DNA of 56,140 nt, from IMG/VR virus record IMGVR_UViG_3300012005_000007, positions 1-56,140 of that record. One strand, given 5' to 3'. Positions 8,373 through 53,492 of this stretch are shown in pieces. Source of the stretch: a virus. A program made the translations under genes and the position numbers. The number at the start of each line of letters is the position of its first letter. Positions within the stretch are counted from its first letter, which is position 1. The notes under the pieces were generated by a model that was not told the origin of the DNA, made no database searches, and saw nothing but the letters and a program-made list of their open reading frames with translations.

Positions 8373-9401
8373 ATGTTACAACATATCATAGACCGCAGGA
8401 ACAATCTCATAAATACCTTAGAAAAGTCTTATTATACACCACAGGAGGTTTTAAAAAAATCAAAAGAGGTATATCAAGAACTTGGAGAAAGTCCTGAATT
8501 CCAATCATTAGAAGATGAAGGTATCATAACAGATTTTGATAGTGATAACAGTAAGAAAGACCAAGAAGAAGGTAAGGATGTAGGGTTAGAAAAAGATGAA
8601 GTAAAAAAATCAATTGACCAACTCAACCATGACCTCATAAAAGCAACAACTTTTGAACAGCGTAAAGCTATACAGATTGAGTTAAAAGACCGTATTGAAA
8701 AAGCAGTAGACCGTGAAATATATGGTCGTTCTATACTTTTTAAATCGGTTGAAGATAATGAGTTTGATGAGATAGTAAAAGGCTTTGAAGATTTAGAAAA
8801 AGGTGGAGTAGGTTCAGGACCTCATAAAGTTGATGGTAAAATAGATTATTCATCTGCAATTCATACTCATTCTAAAGAAATTGCAGAACACGCTGGTATT
8901 TCTCATGATGAGTACCAAAAACTTCATCCAGGTACAAAAGAAGAACTTGCAAGAAATAAATTTGAGAAATCTGAAGACCTTGAAAAAGGACTTGGAAATA
9001 AAATTCATAAATACATCTCAAAAATAGGGAACAGATATATATATGAAAATAAAAATGTAGTTTCCTCACTTAATGATCTACGTGAATACCACAAACAAAA
9101 AACAGGACTTGACTCTATAAAAAGATCACTATCAAAATCACCTGACTCACCTCACTTGAAAGATATACATGAAACTTACAAGAAAAAAGCAACAGACTTC
9201 AAAAAATTATATGGACACGACCATGATTCTGATGAAGCAGATGAAAAGAAAAGACTAACCGTAAACGGAATGTTATCACATATTGAAAACCGTACTTATA
9301 ATAATAAACTTGCACGTCTTGAAAAATCAGATGAGGAAGGACTTATTAAAGAACTGATAGTTAGAAATGAGTTAGTAAAAGGAGAAGTTAATTCTAAATA
9401 A
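8373..9401 (+). CDS. Head-associated protein with many LxK-[G/A/S] sites
   Basis: 342 residues, mostly helical and highly charged, placed directly before the portal gene (two-base gap). It holds DLEKGGVGSGPH at about residue 145, a version of the KGG junction seen in the cargo-like proteins of this phage, followed by a His-rich stretch (HTHSKEIAEHAG). By hand I count about 13 matches to [LIVMF]-x-K-[GAS] in this protein, far above chance, including LEKSYY, LIKATT, IVKGFE, LEKGGV, LEKGLG, LEKSDE and LVKGEV. I infer a prohead core or scaffold-like component cut by the prohead protease. Function is otherwise unknown. Confidence 0.6.
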   Translation: MLQHIIDRRNNLINTLEKSYYTPQEVLKKSKEVYQELGESPEFQSLEDEGIITDFDSDNSKKDQEEGKDVGLEKDEVKKSIDQLNHDLIKATTFEQRKAIQIELKDRIEKAVDREIYGRSILFKSVEDNEFDEIVKGFEDLEKGGVGSGPHKVDGKIDYSSAIHTHSKEIAEHAGISHDEYQKLHPGTKEELARNKFEKSEDLEKGLGNKIHKYISKIGNRYIYENKNVVSSLNDLREYHKQKTGLDSIKRSLSKSPDSPHLKDIHETYKKKATDFKKLYGHDHDSDEADEKKRLTVNGMLSHIENRTYNNKLARLEKSDEEGLIKELIVRNELVKGEVNSK

Positions 9402-9403
9402 TC

Positions 9404-10972
9404 TTGAGCAATTTCTCAGAAAATATTGCCTCAATAGAGGAACAAAAAGCGAAACTTGAGATCCAAAAGGGTCTTGAACTTAAGAAAGCTCTGCAATCAG
9501 ATGATGTAGACACACTTTTTAAAGCCCAACAACTTATCACTTCTGAAAAAGCAGATCCATCCAATGTAAAATCTATCTTAGTTGACCCTAACGACCTTAT
9601 GGTCAATATGGGCTACCGAGATAAACCTTATGCAGTTACTTATGAAATGCTACGAGGAATGGGACGGATACACGTTGTTAAGTCAATTGTAGAAACCCGT
9701 AAGGAACAAGTAGCTTCGTTCTGCCAAGTTCAAAAAGATAAGTACAGTACTGGGTTCGTAATTAAAAAACGTACGCTTCTACCCGGTTCAAAACCTGTTA
9801 AATTATCTAAGCAAGATGAGAAAAAAATTGAGATGATGACCGAATTTCTACTTTTTTGTGGAAATAAAAATCGTCTTTGGAAAGCAGATACATTTGATAC
9901 TTTCACCCGTAAAGTTATACAAGATTCACTTGTACTTGACCAAGCATGTTTTGAAGTTGTAAGGAATAAAAAAGGTGAACTAGATGAAATACTAGCAGTT
10001 GATGCTGCAACTATGAGAATTGCTGATTCTTATGATGATGATGAGTATAAAGGAAAAGAAAGGGTAATGAAAAATAACTGTTATCCAAATACAGTTCAAA
10101 TACTTGACGCCGTTCCTCGTGCCGAATATTATCCTTGGGAATTATGCTTTGGAATACGAAACCCAACAACCGATATTCATAAAAATGGATACGGAAGATC
10201 AGAACTTGAAGATATGGTATTGACCGTAACATCAATTTTAAACGCCGACCAATACAACTCTAACTTTTTTAAAGTAGGAGCTTCACCAAAAGGTATTCTT
10301 TCTTATAGTGGAAATATAAACGAAAACAGTTTACAAGATTTTAAAAGACAATGGATGGCTCAAACATCAGGCGTTGCAAATGCTTGGAAAATGCCAGTCA
10401 TCAATGCCGATAAAATCCAGTTCCAACCAACTCATGTCGCAAGTGCAGATATGGAGTTTTCAAAATTCCAGGAATTTCTTATTAAGATTTGTTGTGCATT
10501 ATACAAAATTGACCCCTCAGAAATTGGTTTCCCAATGTCTGGAAATGCAAGTGGAACCTCAGGGTTAGGTGGAGACTCAACTGCTGAAAAACTTAAATAT
10601 TCTAAAGATAAAGGACTTAAACCACTACTTAAACAATATCAGTATTGGATAAATAAATACATAATTTGGCAAATAGATCCAGATTTTGAGTTTGAATTCC
10701 AAGGAATAGATGGAGAACAAACTTTCCAAGAAGAACTTGATAATGATATAAAGTCAATGGGAAATTTCATGACTATTAATGAAATTCGAGAAAAAAGAGG
10801 AATGAAAAAAGTTCCATGGGGAGATATATCTTGTAACCCAATAGCATATCAAAATTATTCTATGCAACAACAGCAACAAATGCAAGAAGACCAACAGGGT
10901 CAGGACCAAGGTGATGAGGAAGAAAACCCATTTTTGAAATCGCTTAACTTAGATGAAATTTTTAACAACTAA
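9404..10972 (+). CDS. Portal protein
   Basis: 522 residues from a TTG start two bases after the previous stop. The core reads like a phage portal: long helices, WELCFGIRNP and YGRSELEDMVLTV in the stem region, and the tail-proximal LIKICCALYKIDPSEIGFPM typical of HK97/SPP1-type portals, ending in a Gln-rich acidic tail. It forms the dodecameric DNA channel at the head vertex. The first 40 residues hold three [LI]-x-K-[GAS] strings (IQKGLE, LKKALQ, LFKAQQ) and the C-terminus one (FLKSLN), so the ends may be trimmed during maturation. Position before the head genes agrees. Confidence 0.85.
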   Translation: MSNFSENIASIEEQKAKLEIQKGLELKKALQSDDVDTLFKAQQLITSEKADPSNVKSILVDPNDLMVNMGYRDKPYAVTYEMLRGMGRIHVVKSIVETRKEQVASFCQVQKDKYSTGFVIKKRTLLPGSKPVKLSKQDEKKIEMMTEFLLFCGNKNRLWKADTFDTFTRKVIQDSLVLDQACFEVVRNKKGELDEILAVDAATMRIADSYDDDEYKGKERVMKNNCYPNTVQILDAVPRAEYYPWELCFGIRNPTTDIHKNGYGRSELEDMVLTVTSILNADQYNSNFFKVGASPKGILSYSGNINENSLQDFKRQWMAQTSGVANAWKMPVINADKIQFQPTHVASADMEFSKFQEFLIKICCALYKIDPSEIGFPMSGNASGTSGLGGDSTAEKLKYSKDKGLKPLLKQYQYWINKYIIWQIDPDFEFEFQGIDGEQTFQEELDNDIKSMGNFMTINEIREKRGMKKVPWGDISCNPIAYQNYSMQQQQQMQEDQQGQDQGDEEENPFLKSLNLDEIFNN

Positions 10973-12431: not shown

Positions 12432-12656
12432 ATGGAGATAACAATTGGTAATTTTGATTACTCAGCTATTATTGATGAAAAAGGTAAAACTGACTGGATT
12501 TATAAAGCTAAAGACTTTATTCCTCCAAAAAAAGTAATTAAAGAACCAGTTCAATATAAAATACAAAACGTAATTGAAAGGTCTTTTAAAGATAACTATC
12601 AAAAAACGTTAAAAACAACAGTAAAAGAACTCATTTTATACATAAATGGCATTTAA
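12432..12656 (+). CDS. Hypothetical small protein
   Basis: 74 residues, basic, soluble, no motif (begins MEITIGNFDYSAIIDEKG). It overlaps the following gene by 11 bases, which points to coupled expression with that leader-module protein. The leader TTCTTATTTATACATTTATG holds a possible weak TATACATTT promoter box. Confidence 0.5.
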   Translation: MEITIGNFDYSAIIDEKGKTDWIYKAKDFIPPKKVIKEPVQYKIQNVIERSFKDNYQKTLKTTVKELILYINGI

Positions 12657-13788
12657 AACAGTCACAGACCAGCGTAACGCAATAAACATACTTTCAATGT
12701 ATGGAAAATTACCTGAGAAAAAGGTAGAAACAACTCAATCTGAAACTCTTGTAAAGGCGGTGATTGGTAAAACAAGGTCGGGTAAAGAAGTATACAATAT
12801 GACAGATGAGTCTTATGAAAACTTCACTAAAGTTGACCATAAGTTTGCAACTGAATTGTGTAAAGCACAGAATTTAGTTGAAGAAGTTGAATACCACAAG
12901 GAGCGCTATAATGAGTTACAAAAGTCTGAAGCATATAATGGGTTAAAAGACCAGTTTGATATGTTGATAAAGAGTGAGGTAATTGATGAGTTAGAAAAAG
13001 CAGAAGGAGATCATGGGGGAAAAGTCATTGGTCATACAATTAGTGGAAAGCCTATTTACGAAAACCAATCTGCTCATGATTATGTAGGTTTTTCAAAAGA
13101 AGATCATGAAGGTGGAGCTTTACATCACCAAAGGGAAGCAGATAAACATAATAAAGGTACCAAAAAAAATATTTGGCATGAAGCAAAAGCTCATGGTCAT
13201 AAAGAACGCTATAATGAGTTACAAAAGTCTGAGGCATATAACGGGTTAAAAGACCAGTTTGATATGTTGATAAAGGCAGAAGATGACTTAGAAAAAGGTG
13301 GTGAAGGAAGTAGAGGTGGAAAAGTTATTGGACATACCTCTACAGGTAAACCTATTTATGATAATGCAGATAACCCTGCACATAAAAGTTTTGGTACTAA
13401 TGAACATTTTCAAGCAGCACAACTTCATAAAGACCTTGAGAAACATTGGGATTCTAAAATACCTAAATCAGATGGTACAGGTTTTGGTGATAGGCGAGCA
13501 AGAGCCTCGGTTGCAAATGAAAAAGCAAATCACCATTTTGACCAAGCAAATAAACATGAAGAGTCTATGAGGTCAGTTGCTAATGGTGGTTCAAGAGAAA
13601 TAGGTAAAACTCAATCAGGTAAAAGTATAATGAATGACCCTCATCATGAAGACCATAAAGATTTTACAAAACAAGACCATATAGATGCTACAAAAGTTAA
13701 CAGGGATATAGGTAATAAAGAACGTTCTTCTAAAGCACTTGATAGAGCAGATGCTCATAGGGAACTTGCAAAAACTGCAAAAAATTAA
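12646..13788 (+). CDS. Four-copy VIGHT-SGKPIY module protein (putative virion cargo/core protein)
   Basis: 380 residues. The N-terminus RNAINILSMYG matches the leader shared with four other proteins of the window. Four module copies follow: about residues 38-72 (VIGKTRSGKEVY), 124-160 (KVIGHTISGKPIYE), 222-265 (KVIGHTSTGKPIYD) and 316-352 (EIGKTQSGKSI). Each is followed by a His/Asp-rich F(T/S)xxDHxxA segment. Copies two and three are preceded by an identical 26-residue linker encoded by a 78-bp direct repeat. Nine [LIVM]-x-K-[GAS] strings (such as LIKAED, LEKGGE, LEKAEG) punctuate the linkers. I infer a processed, repeat-built prohead component. No enzymatic domain. Confidence 0.6.
   Translation: MAFKTVTDQRNAINILSMYGKLPEKKVETTQSETLVKAVIGKTRSGKEVYNMTDESYENFTKVDHKFATELCKAQNLVEEVEYHKERYNELQKSEAYNGLKDQFDMLIKSEVIDELEKAEGDHGGKVIGHTISGKPIYENQSAHDYVGFSKEDHEGGALHHQREADKHNKGTKKNIWHEAKAHGHKERYNELQKSEAYNGLKDQFDMLIKAEDDLEKGGEGSRGGKVIGHTSTGKPIYDNADNPAHKSFGTNEHFQAAQLHKDLEKHWDSKIPKSDGTGFGDRRARASVANEKANHHFDQANKHEESMRSVANGGSREIGKTQSGKSIMNDPHHEDHKDFTKQDHIDATKVNRDIGNKERSSKALDRADAHRELAKTAKN
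12895..12972 (+). repeat. 78-bp direct repeat, copy 1
   Basis: Encodes HKERYNELQ...DMLIK, residues 84-109 of the module protein. Copy 2 lies 303 bp downstream. By hand the two copies differ at five positions, all third codon positions and all synonymous. Confidence 0.9.
13198..13275 (+). repeat. 78-bp direct repeat, copy 2
   Basis: Second copy (residues 185-210), with the same protein sequence as copy 1 and five synonymous differences. Indicates an internal duplication followed by selection on the protein. Confidence 0.9.
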
Positions 13789-16790: not shown

Positions 16791-18566
16791 ATGGACAAAC
16801 TTCCTATAGACATACGTAAAGCACAAATTTTATCAATGTATGAACCTGACTTAGAAAAAGGTGGGGTAGGCTCAGGGAGAGTAATAGGACATACAAAATT
16901 AGGTTCTAAAGTATACGAAAACTATAACCACCCCTCTCACAAAGATTTTACTTCCTCTGAACATCTTGAAGCAAGTAATATTCATGCTGATTTAAATAAC
17001 CCAAAGTCTACTTTAACCCATACTCAATCAGATGAAGCTTCTGCACATCATTTTAGAGAACATGAAAAAAGAGAAAAAGCTGAAGAGGGTTTAATAAATG
17101 AATTTAGAAAAAAAGATCCTACATTTTTAGGACAAAATAAAATACAAAAAAGTGAAGAAGAAACTATCTCACAACTCAAAAAATCCATAGAAGATAAAAA
17201 CAATTTAAATAAAGCCTTTGATATCTTAAACGACAAAGATATGTTATGTAAAGCAATCGGACGGACAGGACTTACTCCAAAAAAAGTCACCGTAACAATG
17301 AAAAACGGACAAACTCATCAAGCAATCAGGTGGGTAAATGAACATGATGAAGCACCAAGTCTAAAACATGTATATAAAAATGTAGGAGAAGACGTAACGG
17401 GTGATAATTCAGAACAACGAATCCACAACATTGTTAATCATGACTCTATGTCTCCTGACCTAAAAGTCAAAAATCTTGCACATGAAGGCATCTATGACAA
17501 AGATACACTTTCTAACCTTACTGGTGCAGCACCTCAAAAAGCATACGATATACTCTACAATGCGGGCGTTAAACATAAAGAATTCCGAGATGACCACAAA
17601 GCATTATTAGGAGGTTCAGAAATTTTACCGAAAGATCCAGTGACAGGAGTACAGGTTCCGGTGTCGATGGCGATACATGAGGCGAAGGAGGCACTTAAAA
17701 CTAATGATTTTGAAAAATACCGTGTAGAAAAACAAAGAGAACTTGCTGCAAAATATGGTGTATCAATGGATAACCGTTGGGAGGCATATAATAGAAAACT
17801 AAGAGATACAATACAAGTTGGTTACCCAAGATCATTAATTGCATTTGGGCTCGGCGGGTTGGGTAAAACGTATGATTTTGAACAAATTGCACAAGAATTA
17901 GAGTTAAGACAATACGATGATGACCCTGAGTTGGGTGGTATGGATAATGAAGACGAATATGATTATGTTCTTTTGTCAGGGTCACTTAGTAAAACTGATA
18001 TGTGGAGGCAATTATGCCAACATAAAAATAAATTAATTGTATTTGATGACTTAGATTCTATTTGGGATACTACAGGGGGAGATGATATGGTTAATTGGCT
18101 TAAGAAAATTTGTGATACTACAGGAGATGGGGTAGTACGTAATGGTAATGGTGATAAAGTAAAAGATATCAATGGTGAGCCTTGTCCTAGAATGTGTAAG
18201 TTTAGAGGACGTATTATAAGTATAACTAATCTTAAAGCTTCTGATTTACCTCAACCACTTATAGACTCAAGATCAGGTTCTATTGATTTAACAATGAATA
18301 TGGACCAAACATTAGAAAAAATTGATAAAATCAAGTATAAAATAAAACTAAAAGATGATAAGGGGGAAGAAATAACTGCTTCAAAAGAAGATAGGGAATT
18401 AATGGTAGATTTTTTAAAGGAATTTAAAGACTACCTTAGAATTGAGCAAGTTAACGGTAGAACTGCTGGTCAGATTATAGGAGATGCACAATCTTTAAGG
18501 AGATTAGGTAAATTTTCTAAAGAAGAATTTTATAAAGCTGCATTAATTTCTTTAAGAATTGTATAA
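16791..18566 (+). CDS. AAA+ ATPase with virion leader and VIGHT module
   Basis: 591 residues. Residues 1-25 form the shared leader (RKAQILSMYEPDLEKGG) and 24-66 one module copy (RVIGHTKLGSKVYE, then FTSSEHLEA). A Lys-rich linker with LxK-[AS] strings (IQKSEE, LKKSIE, LNKAFD, LCKAIG) leads to a P-loop ATPase: Walker A G353-LGGLGKT, Walker B D419-D420 in LIVFDDLDS, and a sensor-like RIISITN. ATP hydrolysis could drive remodelling or DNA work, but the substrate is unknown. The leader suggests it enters the prohead or associates with it, unusual for an AAA+ protein. Neighbours are head genes. Confidence 0.75.
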   Translation: MDKLPIDIRKAQILSMYEPDLEKGGVGSGRVIGHTKLGSKVYENYNHPSHKDFTSSEHLEASNIHADLNNPKSTLTHTQSDEASAHHFREHEKREKAEEGLINEFRKKDPTFLGQNKIQKSEEETISQLKKSIEDKNNLNKAFDILNDKDMLCKAIGRTGLTPKKVTVTMKNGQTHQAIRWVNEHDEAPSLKHVYKNVGEDVTGDNSEQRIHNIVNHDSMSPDLKVKNLAHEGIYDKDTLSNLTGAAPQKAYDILYNAGVKHKEFRDDHKALLGGSEILPKDPVTGVQVPVSMAIHEAKEALKTNDFEKYRVEKQRELAAKYGVSMDNRWEAYNRKLRDTIQVGYPRSLIAFGLGGLGKTYDFEQIAQELELRQYDDDPELGGMDNEDEYDYVLLSGSLSKTDMWRQLCQHKNKLIVFDDLDSIWDTTGGDDMVNWLKKICDTTGDGVVRNGNGDKVKDINGEPCPRMCKFRGRIISITNLKASDLPQPLIDSRSGSIDLTMNMDQTLEKIDKIKYKIKLKDDKGEEITASKEDRELMVDFLKEFKDYLRIEQVNGRTAGQIIGDAQSLRRLGKFSKEEFYKAALISLRIV

Positions 18567-18742: not shown

Positions 18743-18750
18743 TTTCTTTG

Positions 18751-18759
18751 TATATTTGG
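18751..18759 (+). promoter_or_regulatory. Probable promoter -7 box of the GIY-YIG gene
   Basis: TATATTTGG at 18751-18759, a near-perfect Bacteroidota -7 element, only three bases before the ATG at 18763. The transcript would be almost leaderless. Confidence 0.45.
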
Positions 18760-18762
18760 TTA

Positions 18763-22349: not shown

Positions 22350-22739
22350 ATGATAAACGAATTTAATAAAGGTAATGCGAGTAGAATATTAGCTTGTTAT
22401 TCCAATGCAGATGAACTTTTAAAAGGTGGTGAGGGTAGTAAGGGAGGAAAAGTTATAGGACATACCAAATCTGGAAAACCTATTTACGAAAGAAGTAAAG
22501 AAGTAATGAGTAAGTACTCTGATTTTTCAAAAGAAGACCACCAAGATGCTCAAAAAGAACATATTAAACATGCTGAAAAATATGCAGATGAAGAACAAAA
22601 AAACTTATCTGCATCAAATAAAGATTATTTAGAAGGTAAAGATAACTCTAAAAACCATGATAAATATTCTCATTCTAAAATTAAAAAAGAAGAACATATT
22701 GACCATGGTTCTTGGCATAGAGAAAGATCTAATGATTAA
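22350..22739 (+). CDS. Leader plus single VIGHT module protein
   Basis: 129 residues. This is close to the minimal form of the family: leader (NASRILACYSNADELLKGG, ending at residue 27), then one module (GGKVIGHTKSGKPIYE) and its FSKEDHQDAQKEH follow-up, then a Lys/His-rich tail. No enzymatic domain. The existence of a stand-alone form suggests the leader and module act as a unit. It overlaps the next small gene. Confidence 0.65.
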   Translation: MINEFNKGNASRILACYSNADELLKGGEGSKGGKVIGHTKSGKPIYERSKEVMSKYSDFSKEDHQDAQKEHIKHAEKYADEEQKNLSASNKDYLEGKDNSKNHDKYSHSKIKKEEHIDHGSWHRERSND

Positions 22740-22910: not shown

Positions 22911-25900
22911 ATGGAAGATTTAATTGAAATACCAGGGGGATTATTATCAAAATCTTATCTTGGAGAATTATATAATAAATACATTGTAAGCCCCTTTCAA
23001 GATACTTTTGGTCTTAAAAAATCAAAAGAGAAAACTGTTTACTGTGATGCAATAGTACTAAATTATTTAGGACAGTTACTTATCTTACAACGTTCTTATA
23101 ACGCCTCATTTGGACCAGGAAAATGGTCATTACCAGGCGGGCATCTTGATCCAGGAGAAACAATACAACAAGGTGCAGAACGTGAACTTGATGAAGAAAC
23201 AGATATAATTGCAGACCTTGAATTTTTACAAACTATAGAAAAAGAAGATTGTACAATTCATTACTTTACAGGAAATGTAACAGATCCACAACTCATTTTG
23301 GATAATGAAGAACATTACAGATTTGAATGGATAGACACATCTGAGATACCTGAATACGATTTCTTACTAGATCTTGGTACTACACTTTCAAATTTATTTC
23401 CAAATTTTGTAGAAGAACCAATTGAAAATAATGAGGAACCAAATCTTAATTTAGCTGATGAACTAGATAAAAACTATGAAATAGTAAAAGTCGAATTTGA
23501 GAAGGGTAATGTAGATCTTGATACATTTTTAGATTATACACTTAAATATAATATTCTAAAAAAATCAGAAGGCTCCCGTGGAGGTCATATTATTGGACAT
23601 ACGAAAAGTGGAAAACCCATTTATGAAGACCACAACCATCCCTCACACCAAAACTTTACCCATCAAGACCATGAGGATGCAGAAACAGCTCATGCTAATA
23701 TTGGTAATACTTTAAAGAGAAATTCTTCAGATTGGAAACACCATTGGAATGAAGGAGGAAAACATTATGATAGTTCTAAAAATAAAATGGTAGAAGAACC
23801 AACTTTTAAAATAGACAAAGAAGATAAAGATGGTTTTTCAGCTGTACATTATTCTGACCAACCAGATTTTGAAAAAGGTGGAGAAGGCTCTCGTGGAGGT
23901 AAAATAGTTGGACATGATAAAAATGGTAAAGCGATATATAACTCAGGTGAATTAGTTGGTAATAACCAAATTCCTTACCATAGATCTCAATCAGTAACTT
24001 ACCATAGAGATTACGAATTTGGTAAAACAGGAACTGAAACTGCAAAAGTAGTTAGTGTAAACCCACATTCTGGTCATGTATTACTGGATAATGGACATGA
24101 TCTTCACCATATAGAACTCCAAAAAAGAGAAGGACGTGGAAGTAAAATAGTAAAGAGTGAGATAACTGATGAAGAAATAGATGAACTCATCAAAGGTGCC
24201 CGTGCCCAAATTGGAGAGGTACGTACATGGGGTAAAGAAAAATGGGTAAAACACATTGATGGATGGGTACACGTTTCAGACAAAGGTAAACATATACTTG
24301 AACGCCCAGGAGGTAAACGTGAAGTTGCAAGTGAAAGTCATGTAGAACATGCTAAAAAGTATTTAGAAAATAAATTACCATCAGGTTCAACTACTGAAGA
24401 AAGAGAAAAGTTTAGAGAGGAAAATAAACCAGAGGAAATTGATAACTTTTCAGAATTTAAAGATATAGTAAATACCTCCTCTTCACTTGAAGAAGCATTT
24501 AATAAAGTAAAAAACAAAAAAGATGTACCAAATCAAACTGCAAGAGAATTTAGAGATAGGTTCGACCCTGATAATGAATTAACACCACTTCAGGCATTTA
24601 CAAAATTTTATGATGAGGTAAAGAAAGTAGATAAACCTGGAGAGTGGGTAATGGGGTATACAAAAAGTGGTAAACCAATTCATTCAGGTTTTGAACATCC
24701 TGACCATAAAAATTTCACAAAAGAAGACCATAAGGATGCAGCTGAACTAATTGGTCAAAACCAAACTATATTCCAGAAGTTCAATAGAAGTTCTACTGAC
24801 CCTGAGGAAAATGATAAGATGATTAAAATGGGTGAACAGAAACTTAAACATATTGAGAGTAGTAAAGATGAGTTTGAATGGAAGAAAAATAACTTTGGAC
24901 ATGATTTATACCATAATGGTGAAAATACAACTTTAGGTGCAAAAAAAGAAAGTGATAAAAAAGGTGTAGAGGAACTTTATAGAAATTCTCCTAATTATAA
25001 AATTTCAAACAACACTAAAAAGAATGTAAAAGAAGGTAAAGTAGACTTAGGCATAGAAGGTATTAGTTTTAATTATAAAATTAATAATGAGGGTTTTTAT
25101 GATATATACGAGGATAAAACTGAAACCAAAATACCAGTTATGTCACCAACATATACTTTATCTGAGGCAAAAACCGATGCAATTAGCTATATAAAAAATG
25201 ATATAGGTTTAGAAAAGTTTAAATCTTTGGTTGAAAACTTTAAGAAACCAGTTGAAACTGAAATAGAAAAGAAAGAAAAAACAACTGACTTACACCGTGA
25301 AGAACATAACCAATTAGTAAACTCAAGAGATAGATCTTTAAGTAGATTATCTGAAACTCGTAAAAAATATGGTTCAGGTTATGGTAAAATGGAACCATGG
25401 AAACGTGCAGCATTAAAAAGAGATGAACATGAAGTTGATAAGTCAAATAAAAAAATTGACCAATTTAAATATAACCATACTGAAGTTCGTAAAGCATTAA
25501 AAGAAGTTGGTATTTCTGCATCTACAACTCAAACAACTGCAATCAGAGGTTTTACTAATGAGTCTAAAGGTTATAATTTAAATGAAGGTGGTTATAATCC
25601 AGATCTTTTAAGTTTAAACCATATATCACTTGAAAAATTTGAAGAAGTAAAATCTGCACTTGAAAAAAGAGGTTTTGAAATAATATCCTCTTCACCACCT
25701 TCTAAAATAATTGCAGGAGGTTCATCTGCAAGTATAAAGTTTGAACCATATCATAAAGATGAAGATTTAAAATTAAAAAAGATCCAAAAGGCAGATGATG
25801 ACTTAATAAACGCACTAATCAAAGCAAAAGAAGTTAAAAAACCTGAAGATAAAGACAAAGAACCAACCGAAGATGAACAACGCCTAGGTACTGCAGATCC

Positions 25901-26645
25901 TCATTCAGATTACAAACTTAAAAAACATGCTCGTAGTGCCTCAGAAGAAAGTTTAAATAAAACAATCAAAGGATCAGGTGATGAAAAACTACGAAAAATT
26001 GCACATAAAGAACTTGACCGTAGAAAGAAAGAAGAACACATCAAAGATGAAAAAGAAAAAGCAGCAATTGCAGCTGCAAAGAAACCACTAAAAAAAGGTG
26101 AAGAAAACTTCTTTGAAACTACCGCTAAGGAGTTTGAAAAAATTTTAGATAAGGCAGTAGGTGATGAAAATACACCAGTTGAAACTAAACCTAATGAAAT
26201 AAAAACTGATAATCATGTGGTAAGTACAGACAAAGATCTTGAAGTAACTGCAGAGGTTGGTCCTGATAAAATGGAGAAGGGAACTTATGTTGATAATTAT
26301 GAAAACAGACATGAAGGAATAGTGGGACAAGAATATCACCATACAGAAAAAATTGAAGATGATAGACCTGCAAATATTAAACTTGAACATAATATAAATA
26401 CCACACTTGGTAATATGATGAAAGGTATATATTATGAAGATGGTTTAAATGACCAACAGTTATATAGTCTTGACCTTCTTGCAGAAAATTGGAGTATAGA
26501 TCCACTTCACTATATTTCAGACATAACTAAATCTGACTTACCAAACCAAACACATACAGTTAAAATAATTGACCAACGTAATAACCAAACACTGGTAACT
26601 GCGGATATTGACAGTGCAGGGAAGTTGTCAAATGTAGTTTTATAA
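22911..26645 (+). CDS. 1244-residue Nudix hydrolase fused to virion modules
   Basis: Residues 40-160 are a Nudix domain with the full box: G77-x5-E83-x7-R91-E-L-D-E95-E96 (GGHLDPGE...RELDEET), so pyrophosphohydrolase activity on a nucleotide or capped RNA substrate is likely. Then come module copies at about 221-262 (HIIGHTKSGKPIYE), 323-346 (KIVGHDKNGKAIY), 430-485 (RAQIGEVRTWG...DGWVHV) and 577-615 (VMGYTKSGKPIH). After these are a Lys-rich helical region and a folded-looking C-terminus (LYSLDLLAENWSIDP). About 16 LxK-[GAS]-type strings separate the parts, so it may be cut into pieces. Enzyme plus virion modules suggests an injected or internal protein. Confidence 0.75.
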   Translation: MEDLIEIPGGLLSKSYLGELYNKYIVSPFQDTFGLKKSKEKTVYCDAIVLNYLGQLLILQRSYNASFGPGKWSLPGGHLDPGETIQQGAERELDEETDIIADLEFLQTIEKEDCTIHYFTGNVTDPQLILDNEEHYRFEWIDTSEIPEYDFLLDLGTTLSNLFPNFVEEPIENNEEPNLNLADELDKNYEIVKVEFEKGNVDLDTFLDYTLKYNILKKSEGSRGGHIIGHTKSGKPIYEDHNHPSHQNFTHQDHEDAETAHANIGNTLKRNSSDWKHHWNEGGKHYDSSKNKMVEEPTFKIDKEDKDGFSAVHYSDQPDFEKGGEGSRGGKIVGHDKNGKAIYNSGELVGNNQIPYHRSQSVTYHRDYEFGKTGTETAKVVSVNPHSGHVLLDNGHDLHHIELQKREGRGSKIVKSEITDEEIDELIKGARAQIGEVRTWGKEKWVKHIDGWVHVSDKGKHILERPGGKREVASESHVEHAKKYLENKLPSGSTTEEREKFREENKPEEIDNFSEFKDIVNTSSSLEEAFNKVKNKKDVPNQTAREFRDRFDPDNELTPLQAFTKFYDEVKKVDKPGEWVMGYTKSGKPIHSGFEHPDHKNFTKEDHKDAAELIGQNQTIFQKFNRSSTDPEENDKMIKMGEQKLKHIESSKDEFEWKKNNFGHDLYHNGENTTLGAKKESDKKGVEELYRNSPNYKISNNTKKNVKEGKVDLGIEGISFNYKINNEGFYDIYEDKTETKIPVMSPTYTLSEAKTDAISYIKNDIGLEKFKSLVENFKKPVETEIEKKEKTTDLHREEHNQLVNSRDRSLSRLSETRKKYGSGYGKMEPWKRAALKRDEHEVDKSNKKIDQFKYNHTEVRKALKEVGISASTTQTTAIRGFTNESKGYNLNEGGYNPDLLSLNHISLEKFEEVKSALEKRGFEIISSSPPSKIIAGGSSASIKFEPYHKDEDLKLKKIQKADDDLINALIKAKEVKKPEDKDKEPTEDEQRLGTADPHSDYKLKKHARSASEESLNKTIKGSGDEKLRKIAHKELDRRKKEEHIKDEKEKAAIAAAKKPLKKGEENFFETTAKEFEKILDKAVGDENTPVETKPNEIKTDNHVVSTDKDLEVTAEVGPDKMEKGTYVDNYENRHEGIVGQEYHHTEKIEDDRPANIKLEHNINTTLGNMMKGIYYEDGLNDQQLYSLDLLAENWSIDPLHYISDITKSDLPNQTHTVKIIDQRNNQTLVTADIDSAGKLSNVVL

Positions 26646-27878: not shown

Positions 27879-29390
27879 ATGACTCCACAAGATAAACAAA
27901 ACTCAGAAAGAATTCTTGATATGTACACTTCAGACCTTGAAAAAGGTGGAAAACGTGCAGAAATTGGTGAAGTAAGAACTTGGGCAGGACAAAAATGGGT
28001 AAAACATACAGATGGTTGGGTACATATATCCGAAAAAACTGGAAAACACCTTCTTGAATTACCAGGTGGTAAAAGAGTATCTGCCGAACCCCACCATATT
28101 GAACATGCTAAAAAATACTTGAGTAGTAATAAGGAAGTTGGAAGTCTTAAAAAACTAAATAATGGAAATATAAAAACCTTAATAAATGGTAAGGAATATA
28201 TATTTGGTTTTAATGCAGATGAAAGTGGTATATATGGAATAGTTCTACCAGGGGAAGAAACTTTTAGTAATATAAATAAAGGTGAAGCAAAAAAAATATA
28301 TGAAAAGTATAGTGAAGAAATCTTAAAATTTTCAAAAGAAAAACTTTCAACCAACAGTAATATTGTTGATTATGCAGCACGTATGTTTGGAACAGCCGAA
28401 TATCCAGTCATAAATAAAATACTGATTGAAGTTCAACCAAAACTTGATGCAGTAGTTGAGGCGACACGTAAATTTTGTGAAAACCATGAACCAAATCCTT
28501 TAAAATTTGATGAGCGTGATAAAGAATATTGTGAAATAGAAACAATAGGCAAACTTTTAAGTTCACTAGGAAAATATATTAAGAAAACAGATAAAATTTC
28601 AGAGCGTTACCCAATGACTTTTTCTAATACTGCAAAAGGGGTAGAAATAAAATCTCAAATTGAACGAGAAGGAAAAGTATATAATTTTGATACAGATTGT
28701 ATAACCGCAGGTGGATATAATATTCAGGCATGGCATTATCGTTATTTAATCAAAACAGACTTACCCGCAATTCATAACCCTTTCACCGCAAAAATTGAAA
28801 ACCGGGTGAAGGCAATGAAGAAAGAAGATAAACTGGTTGAAGAAATAAAAAGAACAGAAGGGTACCTTGAACGTACAAAATCTGAATACGAAAAAATTAA
28901 AGATATAACCAAAGAAATTTCAGATAAAGAATGGGAAGATAAATACTCTTATCCTAAAACTTATGAAGAAACAAATGAAGGGTCTCATTTAAGAAATCAA
29001 GGACCTGAAAAATTTTATGACTACATAGCTCAAGAAAAAGCAAGGCATTACGAAAGAATTCAAGAACAAGTTAAATATCTACCAAAACAAATCAAACAAC
29101 AAGAAAAAGAAGTTCAAAAGTATAAAGACAAACTAGAAGAAACCATTAAAAATAAATGGAACGAAATTGAAGAACCAGCCGAAGGTGATTTTAAAATAAT
29201 TCGTGACCGTCAAAATTATGGACGTCAACCAGGAATCCATTTACACAAATTTGAAAACGGAAATTATAAACGGTTAGTTACTACTTATGGTAAAAATGTA
29301 CGATCTGCAGGGTTTGACCCGTACAAGGATGAAGACATAATAAAATATTATAACTGGAAGAAAGAAAATCCAGATAAACCAAAAGACTAG
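27879..29390 (+). CDS. Leader plus RAEIGEVRTW-module protein with coiled-coil C-terminus
   Basis: 503 residues. Leader SERILDMYTSDLEKGG (residues 9-24) is followed directly by the second module type, residues 26-80 (RAEIGEVRTWAGQKW, TDGWVHI, LPGGKR, IEHAKKYL), nearly the same as that inside the Nudix protein. The next 220 residues look globular but unrecognised (FSNTAKGVEIKSQIEREGKVY). Then come coiled coil (RTEGYLERTKSEYEKIKD) and a short C-terminal domain with GIHLHKFENGNYKRL. The leader joined to a different module shows that the two module types are interchangeable. Confidence 0.65.
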   Translation: MTPQDKQNSERILDMYTSDLEKGGKRAEIGEVRTWAGQKWVKHTDGWVHISEKTGKHLLELPGGKRVSAEPHHIEHAKKYLSSNKEVGSLKKLNNGNIKTLINGKEYIFGFNADESGIYGIVLPGEETFSNINKGEAKKIYEKYSEEILKFSKEKLSTNSNIVDYAARMFGTAEYPVINKILIEVQPKLDAVVEATRKFCENHEPNPLKFDERDKEYCEIETIGKLLSSLGKYIKKTDKISERYPMTFSNTAKGVEIKSQIEREGKVYNFDTDCITAGGYNIQAWHYRYLIKTDLPAIHNPFTAKIENRVKAMKKEDKLVEEIKRTEGYLERTKSEYEKIKDITKEISDKEWEDKYSYPKTYEETNEGSHLRNQGPEKFYDYIAQEKARHYERIQEQVKYLPKQIKQQEKEVQKYKDKLEETIKNKWNEIEEPAEGDFKIIRDRQNYGRQPGIHLHKFENGNYKRLVTTYGKNVRSAGFDPYKDEDIIKYYNWKKENPDKPKD

Positions 29391-29487: not shown

Positions 29488-30582
29488 ATGCCTACAGAAC
29501 TAGAACTAAAAACTGAAGAGGAAACACAAATAATCTTAAGAACAGATTACTATAATTATATATTATGTGATCCAAGAAAAGAAAAATATATAATTAAACT
29601 AATCAATGTATTGTTACCTGGTGAACCATTTTATGTGGGACGGGGTTGTGACTGTAGGAAAACTGAACATTTAAGAGAAGTAAGAAACAATTTAGAAGAT
29701 GAAGGTTTTTATGAATGTGGAAATAAAGAGAAGAAAAAGAAAATAAGAGAAATTATTAAAAGTGGTCATTTACCAATTATTTTTCTTGTTAAACAAAATA
29801 TAAGTTTTCAAGAATCAGTTTTTTCTGAAAGATTTTTAATACGAGTAATTGGTTGTGCAGATAAAAAGAAGGGACCTTTAACAAACTTAACAGACGGTGG
29901 TGAAGGAACTGAAGGGTATAGGCATACTCCTGAAACTAAAGAAAAATTTTCTCTTCAAAAGAAAGGTAAGAAAAGGCGTCCTGGAACTTATAATTATCTT
30001 TTCCAAAGTACTTATCAACTTTCATTATCTGGTGAAGTGATTGAACACTTTGAATCTTTAACAGCTGCAATGGTTAAAACAGGTATTGATAAATCTTCTA
30101 TTATGAATATTTGTAAAAAGAAAGGAGAATCCAAAACTGCAGGCGGATTTTGTTGGTGTTATGTAGAAGATTTAGAACAAAGACAAAAGGGGTTAAGTCA
30201 ATTCACCTTAGATGGTGAATTTATAAAAGAATGGGATGATAGTATTCAAATTACTAAAGAATTAAAAATAGATGGATCTTTAATTAGTCCTGTATGTACT
30301 GGAAGAACAAAAACTTGTGCTGGTTTTGGTTGGTGTTATCTAAATGATAAAGAAATCTATCAAGAGAAATTAAAGAAAAATCCATTAAAAGTAATATTTA
30401 AAAAACTTAAAGTTAAACAATTTGATATAAACCATAATTTTATTTCAGAATATAATTCTTTAGAAGAAACCTCAAGAAATACTAATATAAGTGTTGATAG
30501 AATTAGAGCTTGTTGTAAAGGGATTAAAATGGATGGTAAAGCTGGTGGATTTTTCTTTGAGTATTCAGACAAAGTAGGGTAG
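29488..30582 (+). CDS. GIY-YIG homing endonuclease with NUMOD1-type repeats
   Basis: 364 residues. The N-terminal nuclease has FYVGRGCDCRKTEH (YVG and Arg), ESVFSERFLIRVIGC (Glu) and NLTDGGEG. A NUMOD3-like HTPETKEKFSLQKKGKKR linker follows. Three DNA-binding repeats of the NUMOD1/IENR1 kind come last (SLTAAMVKTGIDKSSIMNIC, QITKELKIDGSLISPVC, SLEETSRNTNISVDRIRACC), each ending in K(T/G)AGGF.W or similar. It has its own likely promoter (TATATTTAAG at 29474) after a terminator and lies just before the prohead protease gene. Confidence 0.85.
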   Translation: MPTELELKTEEETQIILRTDYYNYILCDPRKEKYIIKLINVLLPGEPFYVGRGCDCRKTEHLREVRNNLEDEGFYECGNKEKKKKIREIIKSGHLPIIFLVKQNISFQESVFSERFLIRVIGCADKKKGPLTNLTDGGEGTEGYRHTPETKEKFSLQKKGKKRRPGTYNYLFQSTYQLSLSGEVIEHFESLTAAMVKTGIDKSSIMNICKKKGESKTAGGFCWCYVEDLEQRQKGLSQFTLDGEFIKEWDDSIQITKELKIDGSLISPVCTGRTKTCAGFGWCYLNDKEIYQEKLKKNPLKVIFKKLKVKQFDINHNFISEYNSLEETSRNTNISVDRIRACCKGIKMDGKAGGFFFEYSDKVG

Positions 30583-30634: not shown

Positions 30635-32347
30635 ATGTCCAAAAAAGTACAAAATAAATTCAATTTTCAAATACCAATGCAAAAAATAGAGAAATCTAAA
30701 GGTGCAGACGGTAAGGAAATAATGAAATTTAAAGGTATATGTTCTTCTAAAACTGAAGATTCTGATGGTGAAACTTTACATCCAGATGGATTTGACTTTC
30801 AGCCTTTAATGGAGAAAGGTTTTATTAACTATAATCACCAAGCAGGGAAATCCTCAGGAACTATAGTTGGTCGTCCAACTAAATGTGAAGTTATAAACGG
30901 GGGAGACGCTCTATATCTAGAGGGTATTTTGTACCCGGAAGTTGATGAGGCACAAAAAATCTATAAACTTGCAAAAGCATTAGAAAATGACCCTACAGGG
31001 CGCCACTTATCGTTCAGTATAGAAGGCAATGCTACACAGAGAGACCCTTTTAACCCTAAGAAAGTTTTAAAGGCAACTATTACTGACGTGGCGATATGCC
31101 ATAAACCTAAAAACTCTAATACCTTCATGCAAATTATGAAAGGTGAACAAGAACAAGATTTTGTAACAACCAACGGTGAAGATGAAGAATCAGGCGAAAT
31201 AAACCAACCAATAGAAGGAGAAGATGAAACTGAAAAAGCCTTAACCGCAGAAACCGTAACCAATACTTTTGGAGTACCAGATATTGAAGGAACACCAAAA
31301 AAACTTTTAGCGAAAAGCGAAATATACAAATCATTAATATCTAAATATGATATTGATAATATTGAAAAAGCAAAAGAAATTTATACATTCATTGATACAG
31401 TAAACACAAAATTATATAACAACATGGAAGGAATTACTTCTGAGGCTCTAGTAAAAGCATTTGAGTTTCTAGATACACAAATAACTAAAAGTGAAGAAGT
31501 CGAAATAGTTAAAGCCGAAGGCGGAGTACAAGATGATAACCAAGGCACTGAAGACGAAATAGAAGCTTCAAAGAAAAAAGAAGAAATGGAAAAATCAAAA
31601 GAATTTGCAGTTGAAAACCTTAAAAAAGGTATGTCAAAAGATGAAAATATTGAAGACTGTATCCGTAAAGGAATCTCATTATCAGAATCACAAACAGCTG
31701 TAGAAAGCGCAATTTCAGAATATGAAGCTGGTGAAAAAGAAGGTGGTACAATAACCGCAGTCGTAGATCCAACAATATCATTACAATTAGCGGAAGTATC
31801 AAAAACAGTTGCAGAGTTAACAAAAGCAATTGAAGCACTAACAACCAAAGACACTTTACAAAAGGCAGAAGGCGAAGAAGTAGAAAATACGTTAACAACA
31901 TTATTAAAAGCCCAAAATGATGGACTTAATGACAGGTTTAGTTCAATGGGTGTAATATTAAAAAGCGTTTTTGAAAACTCTGAACTTTTAAAAGCATCAG
32001 TTGAAGAATTAACTGCAGAAAACGAAGAATTAAAAACTACGGTAAATGCAATTGCAAAAAGTTCAGATGGTCCAAAATCTGTACAACGAGTGACAGCGAA
32101 ACCGGTTGATAGATTTATGAAGAGTGAAGGTTCTGGACAAGAAGGTTCAATGACTTACCAATTATCAGACAAAGCGTCTTGTGGTGCATTAACAGATAGA
32201 TTGTTTGCAGATTATACTCTACAGAAGTCTAAGGGTATAGATGACAGTGAGTTGAAGAAGGGTATTGAAAATATAGAATTTACAAAAACATTAACTCCAG
32301 CATTTCAGGCACGTCTTGAGAAGCAAGGTATTAACGTAGTAAGATAA
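30635..32347 (+). CDS. Prohead protease fused to scaffold
   Basis: 570 residues. The first 165 form the protease: ICSSKTEDSDGETLHPDGF opening, H68 in INYNHQAGK, a serine in RHLSFSIEG (S126 or S128), and a D151/H156 region (TDVAICHKPKN), the layout of HK97/T4-type assemblin-like proteases. The rest is a helical, acidic/Lys scaffold. By hand about 19 strings fit [LIVMF]-x-K-[GAS], one exactly at the domain border (IMK169-G170), with others such as IVKAEG, LQKAEG, LLKAQN, FMKSEG. These are likely self-cleavage sites used when the core is cleared before DNA packaging. Directly precedes the capsid gene. Confidence 0.85.
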   Translation: MSKKVQNKFNFQIPMQKIEKSKGADGKEIMKFKGICSSKTEDSDGETLHPDGFDFQPLMEKGFINYNHQAGKSSGTIVGRPTKCEVINGGDALYLEGILYPEVDEAQKIYKLAKALENDPTGRHLSFSIEGNATQRDPFNPKKVLKATITDVAICHKPKNSNTFMQIMKGEQEQDFVTTNGEDEESGEINQPIEGEDETEKALTAETVTNTFGVPDIEGTPKKLLAKSEIYKSLISKYDIDNIEKAKEIYTFIDTVNTKLYNNMEGITSEALVKAFEFLDTQITKSEEVEIVKAEGGVQDDNQGTEDEIEASKKKEEMEKSKEFAVENLKKGMSKDENIEDCIRKGISLSESQTAVESAISEYEAGEKEGGTITAVVDPTISLQLAEVSKTVAELTKAIEALTTKDTLQKAEGEEVENTLTTLLKAQNDGLNDRFSSMGVILKSVFENSELLKASVEELTAENEELKTTVNAIAKSSDGPKSVQRVTAKPVDRFMKSEGSGQEGSMTYQLSDKASCGALTDRLFADYTLQKSKGIDDSELKKGIENIEFTKTLTPAFQARLEKQGINVVR

Positions 32348-32476: not shown

Positions 32477-33946
32477 ATGATTAGTTTAGCTGATTACCAA
32501 GATGGATTTCTTGGTACAGAACAAGAAGGTCTGCAAGAGTTGCAAAAAGCAATGGTTGCGGGCGAAATTACAGGTAGGGATATAACCAACTTACCTTTAA
32601 CTCAAGAACCACTTAAAGTGGAATCACTTGAAAAAACACTTAAATTATTGGATTATCGTCCAAGTGATATTAAGTTATGGGGTGCAGTTCCTAAAATGGT
32701 TGCATATAATACAGTAGAAGAATTCTTGCAATTGCAATCTTATGGTTCTGATGCAAACTTTTATGATGAAGGTGAGTTATCTGATGTAAGTGACTCTACT
32801 TATGTAAGACGTGCAACTTATGTTAAATACATACAACAAACTGGTGAAGTTACAATTCAAGCTCAAATGGTTAAGTCGTATGTTGAGGCCTATGGTCAAG
32901 AATGTAAGAATAAATTAATGAATGTGTTACGTTCTGCAGATAAGTATTTAACTAATGCAGATAGTGATATAATTCCTCAACAATTTGACTCTTTCTACAA
33001 ACAACATGCTTCTATTGGTGGTACACCAGAGTATCTATATCCAAACTTTGAAGCTTATTATAATTCAGGAGTCGTAGTTGATATGCGTGGAAAGTCAATT
33101 AAACAAATTGATATTGAAAGTGCTGCTGTAAATGTGGATAGCCATTATGGTACTGCTAACGTACTATTTGGTCCAACTTCAGTTATCTCAACTATATCTC
33201 AGGATTATTTTGAGACACAACGTATTATGTACGGTGGTGGAGTTAACGCAGCTGTAACCGGAGTAGGTGTAAATATCCAGGAAATTTCCACAACTATGGG
33301 CCCAATTAAGTTAATGGGTGATAAGTTTATGAAAGCAGACCCTGCTCATTTACTTACCGATGCAGCCACCAATGCAAAAGCACCAGCTGCACCAGCAACT
33401 GTAACTGCTACTTTGGCCGCAGATAGTATGTGTCATTATTTGACAGCTGAAATAGGTAATGTTTATTATGCAGTAGCAGCTATTAATCGTTATGGTCAAT
33501 CTAACTTAACTCCTATTGGTTCTGCAATAGCAATAACTGTAGGTGATAGAGTTGATCTGGCAATAACCGCAGGTACTGGTGCAAATGCAGCTTCAGGTTA
33601 TTATATCTACCGTACAGCAGTAACAACTGCAGGTTCATCTACTGGTTTAACTTTTTACCCACTGTTTAAAGTTTCAGCTACACAGTTGACTAATGGTTAT
33701 AACAATGCAGCTGCTGGTCATATTGGTGACTTAGGTTACTTCTTACCAAATACAGAAGGGGCGTTTGTAACACAGATGGATGATGAAGTAATGGCTATTA
33801 AGCAACTTGCTCCTCCATCAAAACTTGATTTGGCAGTAATTTCAATGAGCCGTAGGTTTATCGTGTTCTCATTTTTATCGTGTGTCTTGAGCGCACCTCA
33901 AAAATTTGTGAGATTCATAAATGTGGGCAGGACACACACAGTTTAA
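32477..33946 (+). CDS. Major capsid protein with Ig-like insertion
   Basis: 489 residues. The N-terminal arm has LQK24-AMVAGE, a possible maturation cut. The core follows (DIKLWGAVPKMVAYNTVEEF, spine helix NKLMNVLRSADKYL, GTANVLFGPTSVIS), with the closing FVRFINVG typical of HK97-fold capsids of contractile-tailed phages. Between about residues 302 and 410 a Thr/Ala-rich beta domain is inserted (APAAPATVTATLAAD, YYAVAAINRYGQSNL, GYYIYRTAVTT), an Ig/FN3-like surface domain. Follows the protease/scaffold gene after a 129-base leader and is followed by a terminator. Confidence 0.9.
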   Translation: MISLADYQDGFLGTEQEGLQELQKAMVAGEITGRDITNLPLTQEPLKVESLEKTLKLLDYRPSDIKLWGAVPKMVAYNTVEEFLQLQSYGSDANFYDEGELSDVSDSTYVRRATYVKYIQQTGEVTIQAQMVKSYVEAYGQECKNKLMNVLRSADKYLTNADSDIIPQQFDSFYKQHASIGGTPEYLYPNFEAYYNSGVVVDMRGKSIKQIDIESAAVNVDSHYGTANVLFGPTSVISTISQDYFETQRIMYGGGVNAAVTGVGVNIQEISTTMGPIKLMGDKFMKADPAHLLTDAATNAKAPAAPATVTATLAADSMCHYLTAEIGNVYYAVAAINRYGQSNLTPIGSAIAITVGDRVDLAITAGTGANAASGYYIYRTAVTTAGSSTGLTFYPLFKVSATQLTNGYNNAAAGHIGDLGYFLPNTEGAFVTQMDDEVMAIKQLAPPSKLDLAVISMSRRFIVFSFLSCVLSAPQKFVRFINVGRTHTV

Positions 33947-41958: not shown

Positions 41959-42657
41959 ATGGAAGACATTTTAAAAAAGGGTAGAGGACACCGTGCAGAA
42001 ATTGGTGAAACTCGTATTCATGCAAACGGAAAATGGAAAAAAACAGGACCAGGTTCAAACGGTTGGACCCTCCTAAAAGATATTCACCGAGCAAAATCTG
42101 ATGGTCATGAAGCACACGTCCATACCGTAACTCCAGAAAAAGTTTACTTCCATGTTCATGATAAAGATGGAAATAAAGTTGCAAACGGAAAATTAAAACA
42201 TGAAGATTTTAGAGAAAACTATACACCTGTTCTAATTAATCATCCAACTATTGGTTCTGACTCTCATGTTCAAACCTACTTTATGGGACAAGATAACTTA
42301 CCAGTAGATACCTCAATTACTGAAGATGAGGACGAGGAAGGAGTATCTGATAATATCCGTCCACTTATTAATGATGATGACTTAGATGAGGTATTAGAAG
42401 ATGATCTGCCTGAAATAATTACAGATGAAGCTGATGAAGACGAATTAGAAGATGAGGCAATAAGTCCTTATAAATTAAATCTACAAACTGATACACTGGG
42501 ACGAGTAACCGGTTATACAATTGGATCACTAGTTCAATTTTTAACAGATGGTCGTAAAAAAGAAGGAAGGGTTGAAGATATTGCAGATAATGGAATATTA
42601 ACAGTGAGTACAGGAAATACAAACCATTACATATCCCCAATGAGGTTAGTAGGATAA
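41959..42657 (+). CDS. RAEIGETR-module protein with acidic linker
   Basis: 232 residues. Short leader MEDILKKGRG, then a divergent second-type module (residues 11-40: HRAEIGETRIHANGKWKK, SNGWTLL), His-rich strands (HEAHVHTVTPEKVYFHVHD), a long Asp/Glu linker (about 110-170) and a C-terminal beta domain (GSLVQFLTDGRKKEGRVEDI). It resembles the other module proteins in layout but is placed among tail genes. No enzyme motif. Confidence 0.6.
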   Translation: MEDILKKGRGHRAEIGETRIHANGKWKKTGPGSNGWTLLKDIHRAKSDGHEAHVHTVTPEKVYFHVHDKDGNKVANGKLKHEDFRENYTPVLINHPTIGSDSHVQTYFMGQDNLPVDTSITEDEDEEGVSDNIRPLINDDDLDEVLEDDLPEIITDEADEDELEDEAISPYKLNLQTDTLGRVTGYTIGSLVQFLTDGRKKEGRVEDIADNGILTVSTGNTNHYISPMRLVG

Positions 42658-53054: not shown

Positions 53055-53492
53055 ATGGTTAATAATCTAAATAAAGGTAGAGCTGCAACAATATTATCTT
53101 GTTACTCAAATGTGGATACAATTTTGAAATCTGAAGATAAAGGTGACCTAGAAAAAGGTGGAGAGGGGAGTCGAGGTGGAAAGGTTATCGGACACACTCA
53201 AAGTGGAAAACCTATTTATGAAACTTCAGAACATACTAAAAAAGTCCTAAAAACCTTAGATAAGCATGTTTCAGTGAACCATACTCCTGATGAAAATGGT
53301 CATCATGAAATTACTTATGCTCGAGAAGAGTTAGGCAGGTATGAACCTGAAAATAAAAGAGTTGTACTAACAAATAATATTGGTTATTATCAAGATGGAA
53401 GATATAATGTAGAATTAGGTCCTCATCAAGGACGTTTTGAAAGAGATTTAGAGAACCATGAGGTACATGTACATGATGAAGATTATGAATAA
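53055..53492 (+). CDS. Leader plus VIGHT module protein (tail region)
   Basis: 145 residues. Leader RAATILSCYSNVDTILK, then DLEKGGEGS (from residue 31) and the module (KVIGHTQSGKPIYE). The first 20 residues are close to those of the protein at 22350 (NNLNKGRAATILSCYSN against NEFNKGNASRILACYSN). The rest is His/Glu-rich with no known domain. It sits between the hub and spike genes, showing that the leader family is spread over the virion region, perhaps by duplication. Confidence 0.65.
   Translation: MVNNLNKGRAATILSCYSNVDTILKSEDKGDLEKGGEGSRGGKVIGHTQSGKPIYETSEHTKKVLKTLDKHVSVNHTPDENGHHEITYAREELGRYEPENKRVVLTNNIGYYQDGRYNVELGPHQGRFERDLENHEVHVHDEDYE

Follow-up and report, generated by a model that had tools for sequence, protein, structure and literature searches.

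A predicted lysine-specific cleavage code of a phage head-maturation protease, with candidate cargo leaders and modules

The window analyzed here is the whole 56,140-nt stretch of IMG/VR virus record IMGVR_UViG_3300012005_000007. At 30635..32347 (ATG at 30635, stop at 32347) it carries a gene for a 570-residue protein in which a head-maturation protease is fused to a scaffold; this gene is on the plus strand, as are all head and cargo genes described below. Residues 3-163 match phrog_1028, head maturation protease (E 1.7e-32). We divide the protein into an N-terminal propeptide (residues 1-20, 30635..30694), which ends at IEK20/S21 (a slash marks a predicted or known cut) and is supported by conservation in 47 relatives and 8 lineages; a protease domain (residues 21-169, 30695..31141), which ends at IMK169/G170 and, according to an AF2 model and the relatives, has a herpesvirus-assemblin/T4 gp21-like fold; and a scaffold part (residues 170-570, 31142..32344), which bears most of the Lys sites discussed here. 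The gene directly precedes that of the major capsid protein (32477..33946; phrog_752, E 4e-63), as in the case of the HK97-type prohead protease. The portal protein is encoded at 9404..10972 (phrog_12, E 7e-49), preceded by a gene for a 342-residue protein (8373..9401) with no match in Pfam or PHROG. In addition, GIY-YIG homing-endonuclease genes were recognized by Pfam directly before the protease gene (29488-30582) and directly after the capsid gene (34042-35031); the gene at 18748-20013 resembles them by eye and has no Pfam match. An IS605 OrfB/TnpB-type gene (6265-7440), located upstream of the head genes, is the only clear minus-strand gene, and the product of 26718-27269 contains tandem GSSSATIKTL-like repeats with no Pfam match.

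The sequence-only reading of this locus had proposed [LIVMF]-x-K followed by G, A or S as the cleavage code of the prohead protease, with about 19 matches counted by eye in the protease-scaffold protein. The reading frame and coordinates were right and the number was low: the exact count is 23, compared with 3.2 expected from composition shuffles, which agrees with its rough estimate of about three (p<0.0005; 0 of 2000 shuffles reach 23). These shuffles, 2000 per protein, keep the Lys content. A stricter, dipeptide-preserving set of 1000 per protein holds the K-G, K-A and K-S counts fixed; here the expectation is 8.2 and again no shuffle reaches 23, so that the enrichment persists under both schemes. 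The outcome that the sequence-only reading had named as refuting its proposal, a loss of enrichment in shuffles of unchanged Lys content, was not observed. The remaining counts by eye were accurate, namely 13 sites in the protein before the portal (1.8 expected from composition, 3.7 with dipeptides kept), nine in the protein at 12646-13788 (1.8 and 3.0), and three in the tail hub (49588-53007), which is at chance (3.3 in composition shuffles). The first two of these counts, as well as the 16 sites of 22911-26645 (5.5 and 5.7), lie beyond all 1000 dipeptide-preserving shuffles. Composition shuffles also indicated enrichment in 16791-18566 (7 vs 2.8, p 0.02) and 53055-53492 (3 vs 0.4, p 0.003). 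The 8373-9401 protein is predicted to be a precursor that would be cut to pieces.

To characterize the motif, all 20 residues were tried at P1 with a hydrophobic P3 and a small P1' held fixed. Lys alone is enriched in four window proteins (61 vs 12.4). Among 54 non-redundant environmental relatives it reaches 923 vs 161 and is the top residue in 54/54; for the other residues, the ratio of observed to expected sites ranges from 0 to 1.2. Arg was ruled out as an alternative at P1 (0.98x in the 54 relatives), and so was a T4-like Glu code, the pattern h-x-E-[GAS] (h, hydrophobic) occurring 2 times vs 3.5 expected in the protease-scaffold protein. Scanning of offsets around Lys revealed a single peak, with a hydrophobic residue at -2 and Gly/Ala/Ser at +1 (5.8x; second-best 2.9x). 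The preference at P3 follows the order I > L > F > M, V; the proposed set [LIVMF] is right in that I, L and F lead, and too even in that V and M are weaker. P1' is A, G or S, and P2 disfavours Pro, Gly, Asp and His in the offset-scan data. Over the 54 relatives, site density is 0.040 per residue past position 175 vs 0.016 within the folded catalytic domain, a 2.5-fold depletion in the latter. Three code sites of the window protein (61, 114 and 146) fall within its protease domain.

The same scan was applied to other phages. In the core, protease and scaffold proteins of T4 it picks Glu (19 vs 5.2), in agreement with the known T4 P1 residue, and in T4 sheath and terminase neither Glu nor Lys is prominent. 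The Glu enrichment of phiKZ gp175-177 was missed by this simple scan, the phiKZ code being looser; thus, the scan is able to overlook a code. In protease plus scaffold, Lys ranks first at P1 in 19/19 phages drawn from several Herelleviridae subfamilies and genera and from Bacteroides phages, with SPO1, P100 and a Kayvirus among them; the weakest enrichment in this set is that of P100, a near twin of A511 (7 vs 2.6). No clear code was found in the capsid N-domain of the distant S78 phages Javan411 and MamaPearl.

It could be argued that composition, or coiled-coil or amphipathic-helix periodicity in Lys-/Glu-rich scaffold and linkers, produces the enrichment and that no cutting is involved. The scaffold and cargo proteins are Lys-rich and helical, and preserving dipeptides lifts the expectation for the protease-scaffold protein from 3.2 to 8.2. 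However, the same slot shows no enrichment of Arg, Glu or Gln, the offset scan gives one -2/+1 peak with no heptad pattern, P1' is limited to A/G/S, sites are scarcer in the folded domain, Lys sites mark module junctions, and one code site aligns with the place of known capsid processing (the last two points are described below). A composition artefact is ruled out by the shuffles, the P1 scan and the offset scan, and we consider this explanation as a whole extremely improbable.

In the protease itself, both borders of the domain carry the motif. K20 is kept in 46/47 environmental relatives, and in 46/47 position 18 is hydrophobic and position 21 is A, G or S. The site IMK169/G170, which had been placed at the protease-scaffold border by the earlier reading, is present there; Lys occupies position 169 in 37 of the 47 relatives and the adjoining column in the other 10, seemingly through a shift in the alignment. 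In a set of eight diverse proteases, ranging from that of the window to those of SPO1 and P100, the K20 and K169 columns are both invariant (8/8). The probable catalytic residues H68 and S128 are kept in 47/47 relatives, and N65 and D42 are also invariant. The AF2 model of the protease domain (pLDDT 82.5, pTM 0.74) has T4 gp21 (5jbl) as its best PDB match (E 1.5e-4, probability 1.0); the fold matches that rank next include herpesvirus proteases, at E-values that are not significant, and a PDB sequence search matched no protease. The Peptidase_S78 profile (PF04586) matches 20/46 homologous domains (best E 4.6e-7), and the window protease itself has no PF04586 match at 0.01, nor a Pfam hit of that kind at 0.1. 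We read the 30635-32347 enzyme as a predicted Peptidase_S78 head-maturation protease that would remove scaffold, capsid and portal N-arms, and cargo leaders.

A candidate S1 residue is E130 (31022..31024), within S-I-E-G and two residues past the catalytic Ser. It is E in 46/47 relatives, in 50/52 relatives, and in 19/19 named or related phages. The corresponding residue is Arg in the Glu-cutters T4 gp21 (S140-S-R, R142), phiKZ gp175 (S-V-R) and the SPN3US-type protease (S153-L-R, S153 having been shown to be catalytic in SPN3US; PMC7411985), and Gly in HK97. From these few lineages, we infer that E130 reads the P1 Lys.

In the major capsid protein, residues 1-24 are predicted to be removed at ELQK24/AMVAGEITG, and LQK24/A25 is found in the N-arm as the sequence-only reading had it. 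This site aligns in MA9V-3, DAC19, SPO1 and others. When Ala is allowed at P3, a Lys site occurs in the first 60 residues of the capsid protein in 84/84 relatives, a conservation that is biased for the 80 loci of the capsid alignment, as these were found partly with the pattern ELQKAMxA; ELQKAM is absent from 74/84 capsids, and all 74 nonetheless have the Lys site. The A511 capsid record X91069 annotates a mature peptide that begins at residue 24, after DALK23/SFTTGYG. Lys23 corresponds to LQK24/A of the window, the two having been matched via the conserved TG-ITP/AG-ITG segment downstream, as the N-arm is gappy and its automatic alignment loose. The P3 residue of the A511 site is Ala, outside the stated P3 set, and other phages have Lys before Ser, Ala or Gly (Thr in phiAGATE). 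The experimental basis of the A511 mature start is reportedly the work of Loessner and Scherer (1995). A peptide of phage K also begins exactly after the aligned Lys, but it is trypsin-derived (PMC5258805), so cuts by trypsin and by the phage protease are indistinguishable there.

The portal has Lys sites at 22, 28 and 40, plus one at 512 of 522 near the C-terminus, as had been noted for its ends. Its total is weak (6 vs 2.3, p 0.03; 6 vs 3.8 with dipeptides kept, p 0.14), and the signal is the position of sites at the termini rather than their total. A Lys site lies within the first 56 residues in 13/13 portals, vs 2.7 in shuffles (maximum 7).

Lys at P1 is also the signature of trypsin, and the cuts could thus be attributed to a host trypsin-like or Lys-specific protease acting after lysis or at injection. 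This would not account for the missing Arg enrichment or for the strict requirement at P3 and P1'; moreover, the code accompanies the phage protease across hosts, from Firmicutes to Bacteroidota, and the protease's own borders bear it. We regard the probability of a host enzyme as close to nil, and continue with the phage's own protease.

Several proteins of the window combine Lys sites with a small recurrent module, here called KVIGHT. The 380-residue protein at 12646..13788 contains three KVIGHT-type modules with Lys-site linkers between them. The candidate cargo proteins are of varied architecture. That at 16791..18566 has a leader with two Lys sites, a KVIGHT-type module and a C-terminal AAA-like domain (phrog_1250). 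The product of 22350..22739 begins with the leader MINEFNK/GNASRILACYSNADELLK/GG, with a KVIGHT module next, and that of 22911..26645 (1244 residues, 16 sites) comprises a Nudix domain (NUDIX, E 1.2e-16) and several modules, with Lys sites between. At 27879..29390, a leader ending in ERILDMYTSDLEK/GG is followed by an IGE-GW type module and a C-terminal part of unknown type; at 41959..42657, MEDILKK/GRGHRAEIGETR... is combined with an IGE-type module; and at 53055..53492, a leader with Lys sites 7, 25 and 34 has a KVIGHT module after it.

The leaders LEK/GG and LLK/GG, previously noticed by eye, are present, and one or the other occurs within the first 60 residues of four window proteins vs 0.3 expected. 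One leader sequence is MNEFQKAQSERILGCYGESSETLLEK, and the fullest form of the leader with IL-x-[MC]-Y, NEFQK/AQSERILGCYGESSETLLEK/GGEG, has two Lys sites. The module that follows reads GGEGSRGG-KVIGHTKSGKPIY..., or is of the second type, IGE..T..G..Y.K...GW. An IL-x-[MC]-Y leader was found in 9/1486 ORFs, which come from three genomes (a duplicate contig aside), with a Lys site after it in 9/9 compared with a background of 32%. Like the capsid-targeting leaders of T4, these are short, conserved N-terminal leaders on dissimilar proteins and end at a protease site. By this analogy, the Lys-site leaders may target cargo to the prohead.

Repetition of the motif in leaders ahead of cargo also fits the view that it is a docking or encapsidation signal for the protease or the shell, the actual cuts lying nearby, and T4 leaders do serve both targeting and cutting (PMC5694885). 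On the other hand, the deposited A511 start and HK97 K103/S104 lie exactly after Lys, a small P1' is typical of a scissile bond, and the form is that of the T4 code with Lys replacing Glu. A docking signal with cuts elsewhere is very unlikely, and we continue to treat the Lys sites as the predicted cleavage sites.

The KVIGHT module, with the pattern GGEGSRGGKVIGHTKSGKPIY...FT..DH.DA...H, is widespread in viral contigs (window 22350-22739, 53055-53492 and 12646-13788; loci L108-L181). A search with the module alone, independent of the protease, gave 74 loci. A Lys site is located <=12 residues upstream of the module in 78 of 84 distinct copies, vs 10.4 in shuffles, and 36 ORFs near these loci are rich in the Lys code at p<0.001, compared with a single ORF for a Glu code and none for Arg or Gln codes. 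The modeled module is small and confident (pLDDT 86), consisting of a beta hairpin and a helical hairpin. Its fold matches nothing in PDB or BFVD, and it has no entry in Pfam or PHROG; a literature search with the module strings returned no match, and searches of named phages for the module proteins also found none.

By analogy with the internal proteins of T4, the Nudix, AAA-like or unknown-domain proteins may be packaged, trimmed and possibly injected. The AAA-like phrog_1250 protein has the Lys code and a module both in the window (16791-18566) and in MA9V-3 (L006:38189-39826), which suggests a packaged ATPase. Several of these phages have, in the vicinity of the protease gene, a Nudix-like gene that contains Lys-code sites and is sometimes fused to modules (window 22911-26645; L006:28497-29204, L002:6509-7786 and L009:16334-18337); the window Nudix domain was identified by Pfam and the others were judged by eye.

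Proposed from the letters alone, the reading as a cleavage code has gained support from a P1 position restricted to Lys, the single -2/+1 peak, the conserved protease borders and the aligned capsid N-terminus of A511, and the pattern recurs both among relatives and at loci identified independently of the protease. We therefore predict that [I/L/F/M/V]-x-Lys followed by Gly/Ala/Ser is very probably the code at which the head-maturation serine protease encoded by the phage cuts, and that the code sites of the window phage are probably cut.

The processing could proceed in an order modeled on T4 and HK97. The protease would be made fused to the scaffold and enclosed within the prohead; the protease-scaffold would assemble inside the shell, and cargo would come in via leaders or modules. 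At completion, the protease would release itself at IEK20/S and IMK169/G and then shred the scaffold at its many code copies, the dense sites giving small peptides able to exit the shell. The capsid N-arm would be removed at ELQK24/A, the portal termini trimmed and the cargo leaders removed, with cargo released at K/GG. The outcome would be a shell emptied of scaffold and filled with mature cargo.

A broader proposal can be made tentatively, at somewhat less than even confidence for all its parts together. A large phage group, probably with many members on Bacteroidota, may load varied cargo (Nudix, AAA ATPase and unknown domains) into the head by means of a two-site leader plus a KVIGHT or IGE-GW module, with the Lys-specific protease cutting polyproteins at all module junctions. 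This would be an as yet unnamed system for intravirion delivery, with members recognizable from sequence alone, and in which a Glu/Arg charge swap beside the catalytic Ser would set Lys vs Glu specificity.

Individual sites with Lys at P1 were known before, in HK97 and in A511, and the HK97 protease is of the same family. What appear to be new are the dense family-wide code at protease, capsid, portal and cargo, the two-site cargo leader and the KVIGHT module system. No description of a family-wide Lys code with a leader/module system was found in the open-access literature searched. Prohead protease codes have been measured in few phages only. Cuts at the code are hidden in standard trypsin proteomics, as trypsin cleaves after these very lysines; this could be why the code went unnoticed. 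With a code legible in the sequence itself, processed head and portal proteins and packaged cargo could be listed for thousands of phages, among them therapeutic phages of staphylococci and Listeria, and candidates for injection together with the phage DNA would be flagged. Furthermore, the Glu/Arg difference beside the catalytic Ser offers a direct handle on how specificity is set in an old protease fold that herpesviruses also possess.

Compared with known systems, the closest precedent for the P1 residue is HK97, whose capsid is cut at K103/S104 (PMC10275583). The sequence-only reading had called cutting after Lys a distinct specificity; it does differ from the Glu of T4, phiKZ and phage P1, but in view of this HK97 site it is not new. 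The HK97 site, FNK/S, fits the code, and the gp5 delta domain has 4 code sites vs 0.8 expected. The gp4 protease of HK97 is a Peptidase_S78 in Pfam, the profile also matched by relatives of the window protease, and differs in having Gly where the window family has Glu. The HK97 scaffold is the N-domain of the capsid protein, without a separate scaffold gene, whereas that of the window is fused to the protease. To our knowledge, HK97 has no cargo leaders.

Herelleviridae (SPO1 gp3.2/gp6.1, A511/P100 and the Staphylococcus phage K group) possess a homologous protease and capsid protein and the same code, the protease homology resting on tblastn with 590 phage records. The phrog_1028 protease and phrog_752 capsid genes are both present and adjacent in the window, as in the Herelleviridae head module; the window phage is a relative, not a filed member of that family. 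In SPO1, P100 and DAC19, protease and scaffold are separate genes, with the scaffold between protease and capsid, whereas the fusion is found in the window, MA9V-3 and most environmental relatives. Directly past the C-border Lys site, Herelleviridae proteases carry a segment that closely resembles the N-arm of the mature capsid protein (L007:5158-5928, L010:9931-10725, L012, L013 and L017-L023); in P100, for example, the protease has MK/SWTTGHGTTPDTQVNAGALRRESL and the capsid LK/SFTTGYGITPDTQTDAGALRREFL. This near copy may serve as a shell anchor for the protease. The window protease-scaffold, unlike those of Herelleviridae, has no clear copy of this kind.

T4 gp21 is the nearest solved fold (5jbl), with no sequence-level match found between it and the window family. 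The T4 scaffold gp22 also has many degenerate sites, short leaders are cut off T4 internal proteins, and the code has a like form, as in ITE-6 and LTE-619 of Alt (PMC5694885), with Glu at P1 where the window family has Lys. In phiKZ and SPN3US, the prohead proteases gp175 and gp245 act on many head and ejection proteins, whose propeptides contain multi-copy motifs (PMC5694885); there P1 is Glu, P3 is S/A/G, and Arg stands two residues past the catalytic Ser. As the proteases of T4, phiKZ, SPN3US and P1 all cleave after Glu (PMC5694885, PMC9024508), Lys specificity might be seen as a recent invention of the window lineage from a Glu-cutting ancestor. However, all sampled Herelleviridae lineages have Lys as their leading P1 residue, HK97 of the same Pfam family cleaves after Lys, and Lys sites are present, weakly, in a T5-like phage. 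A recent origin is thus unlikely, and Lys specificity looks old in the S78 branch.
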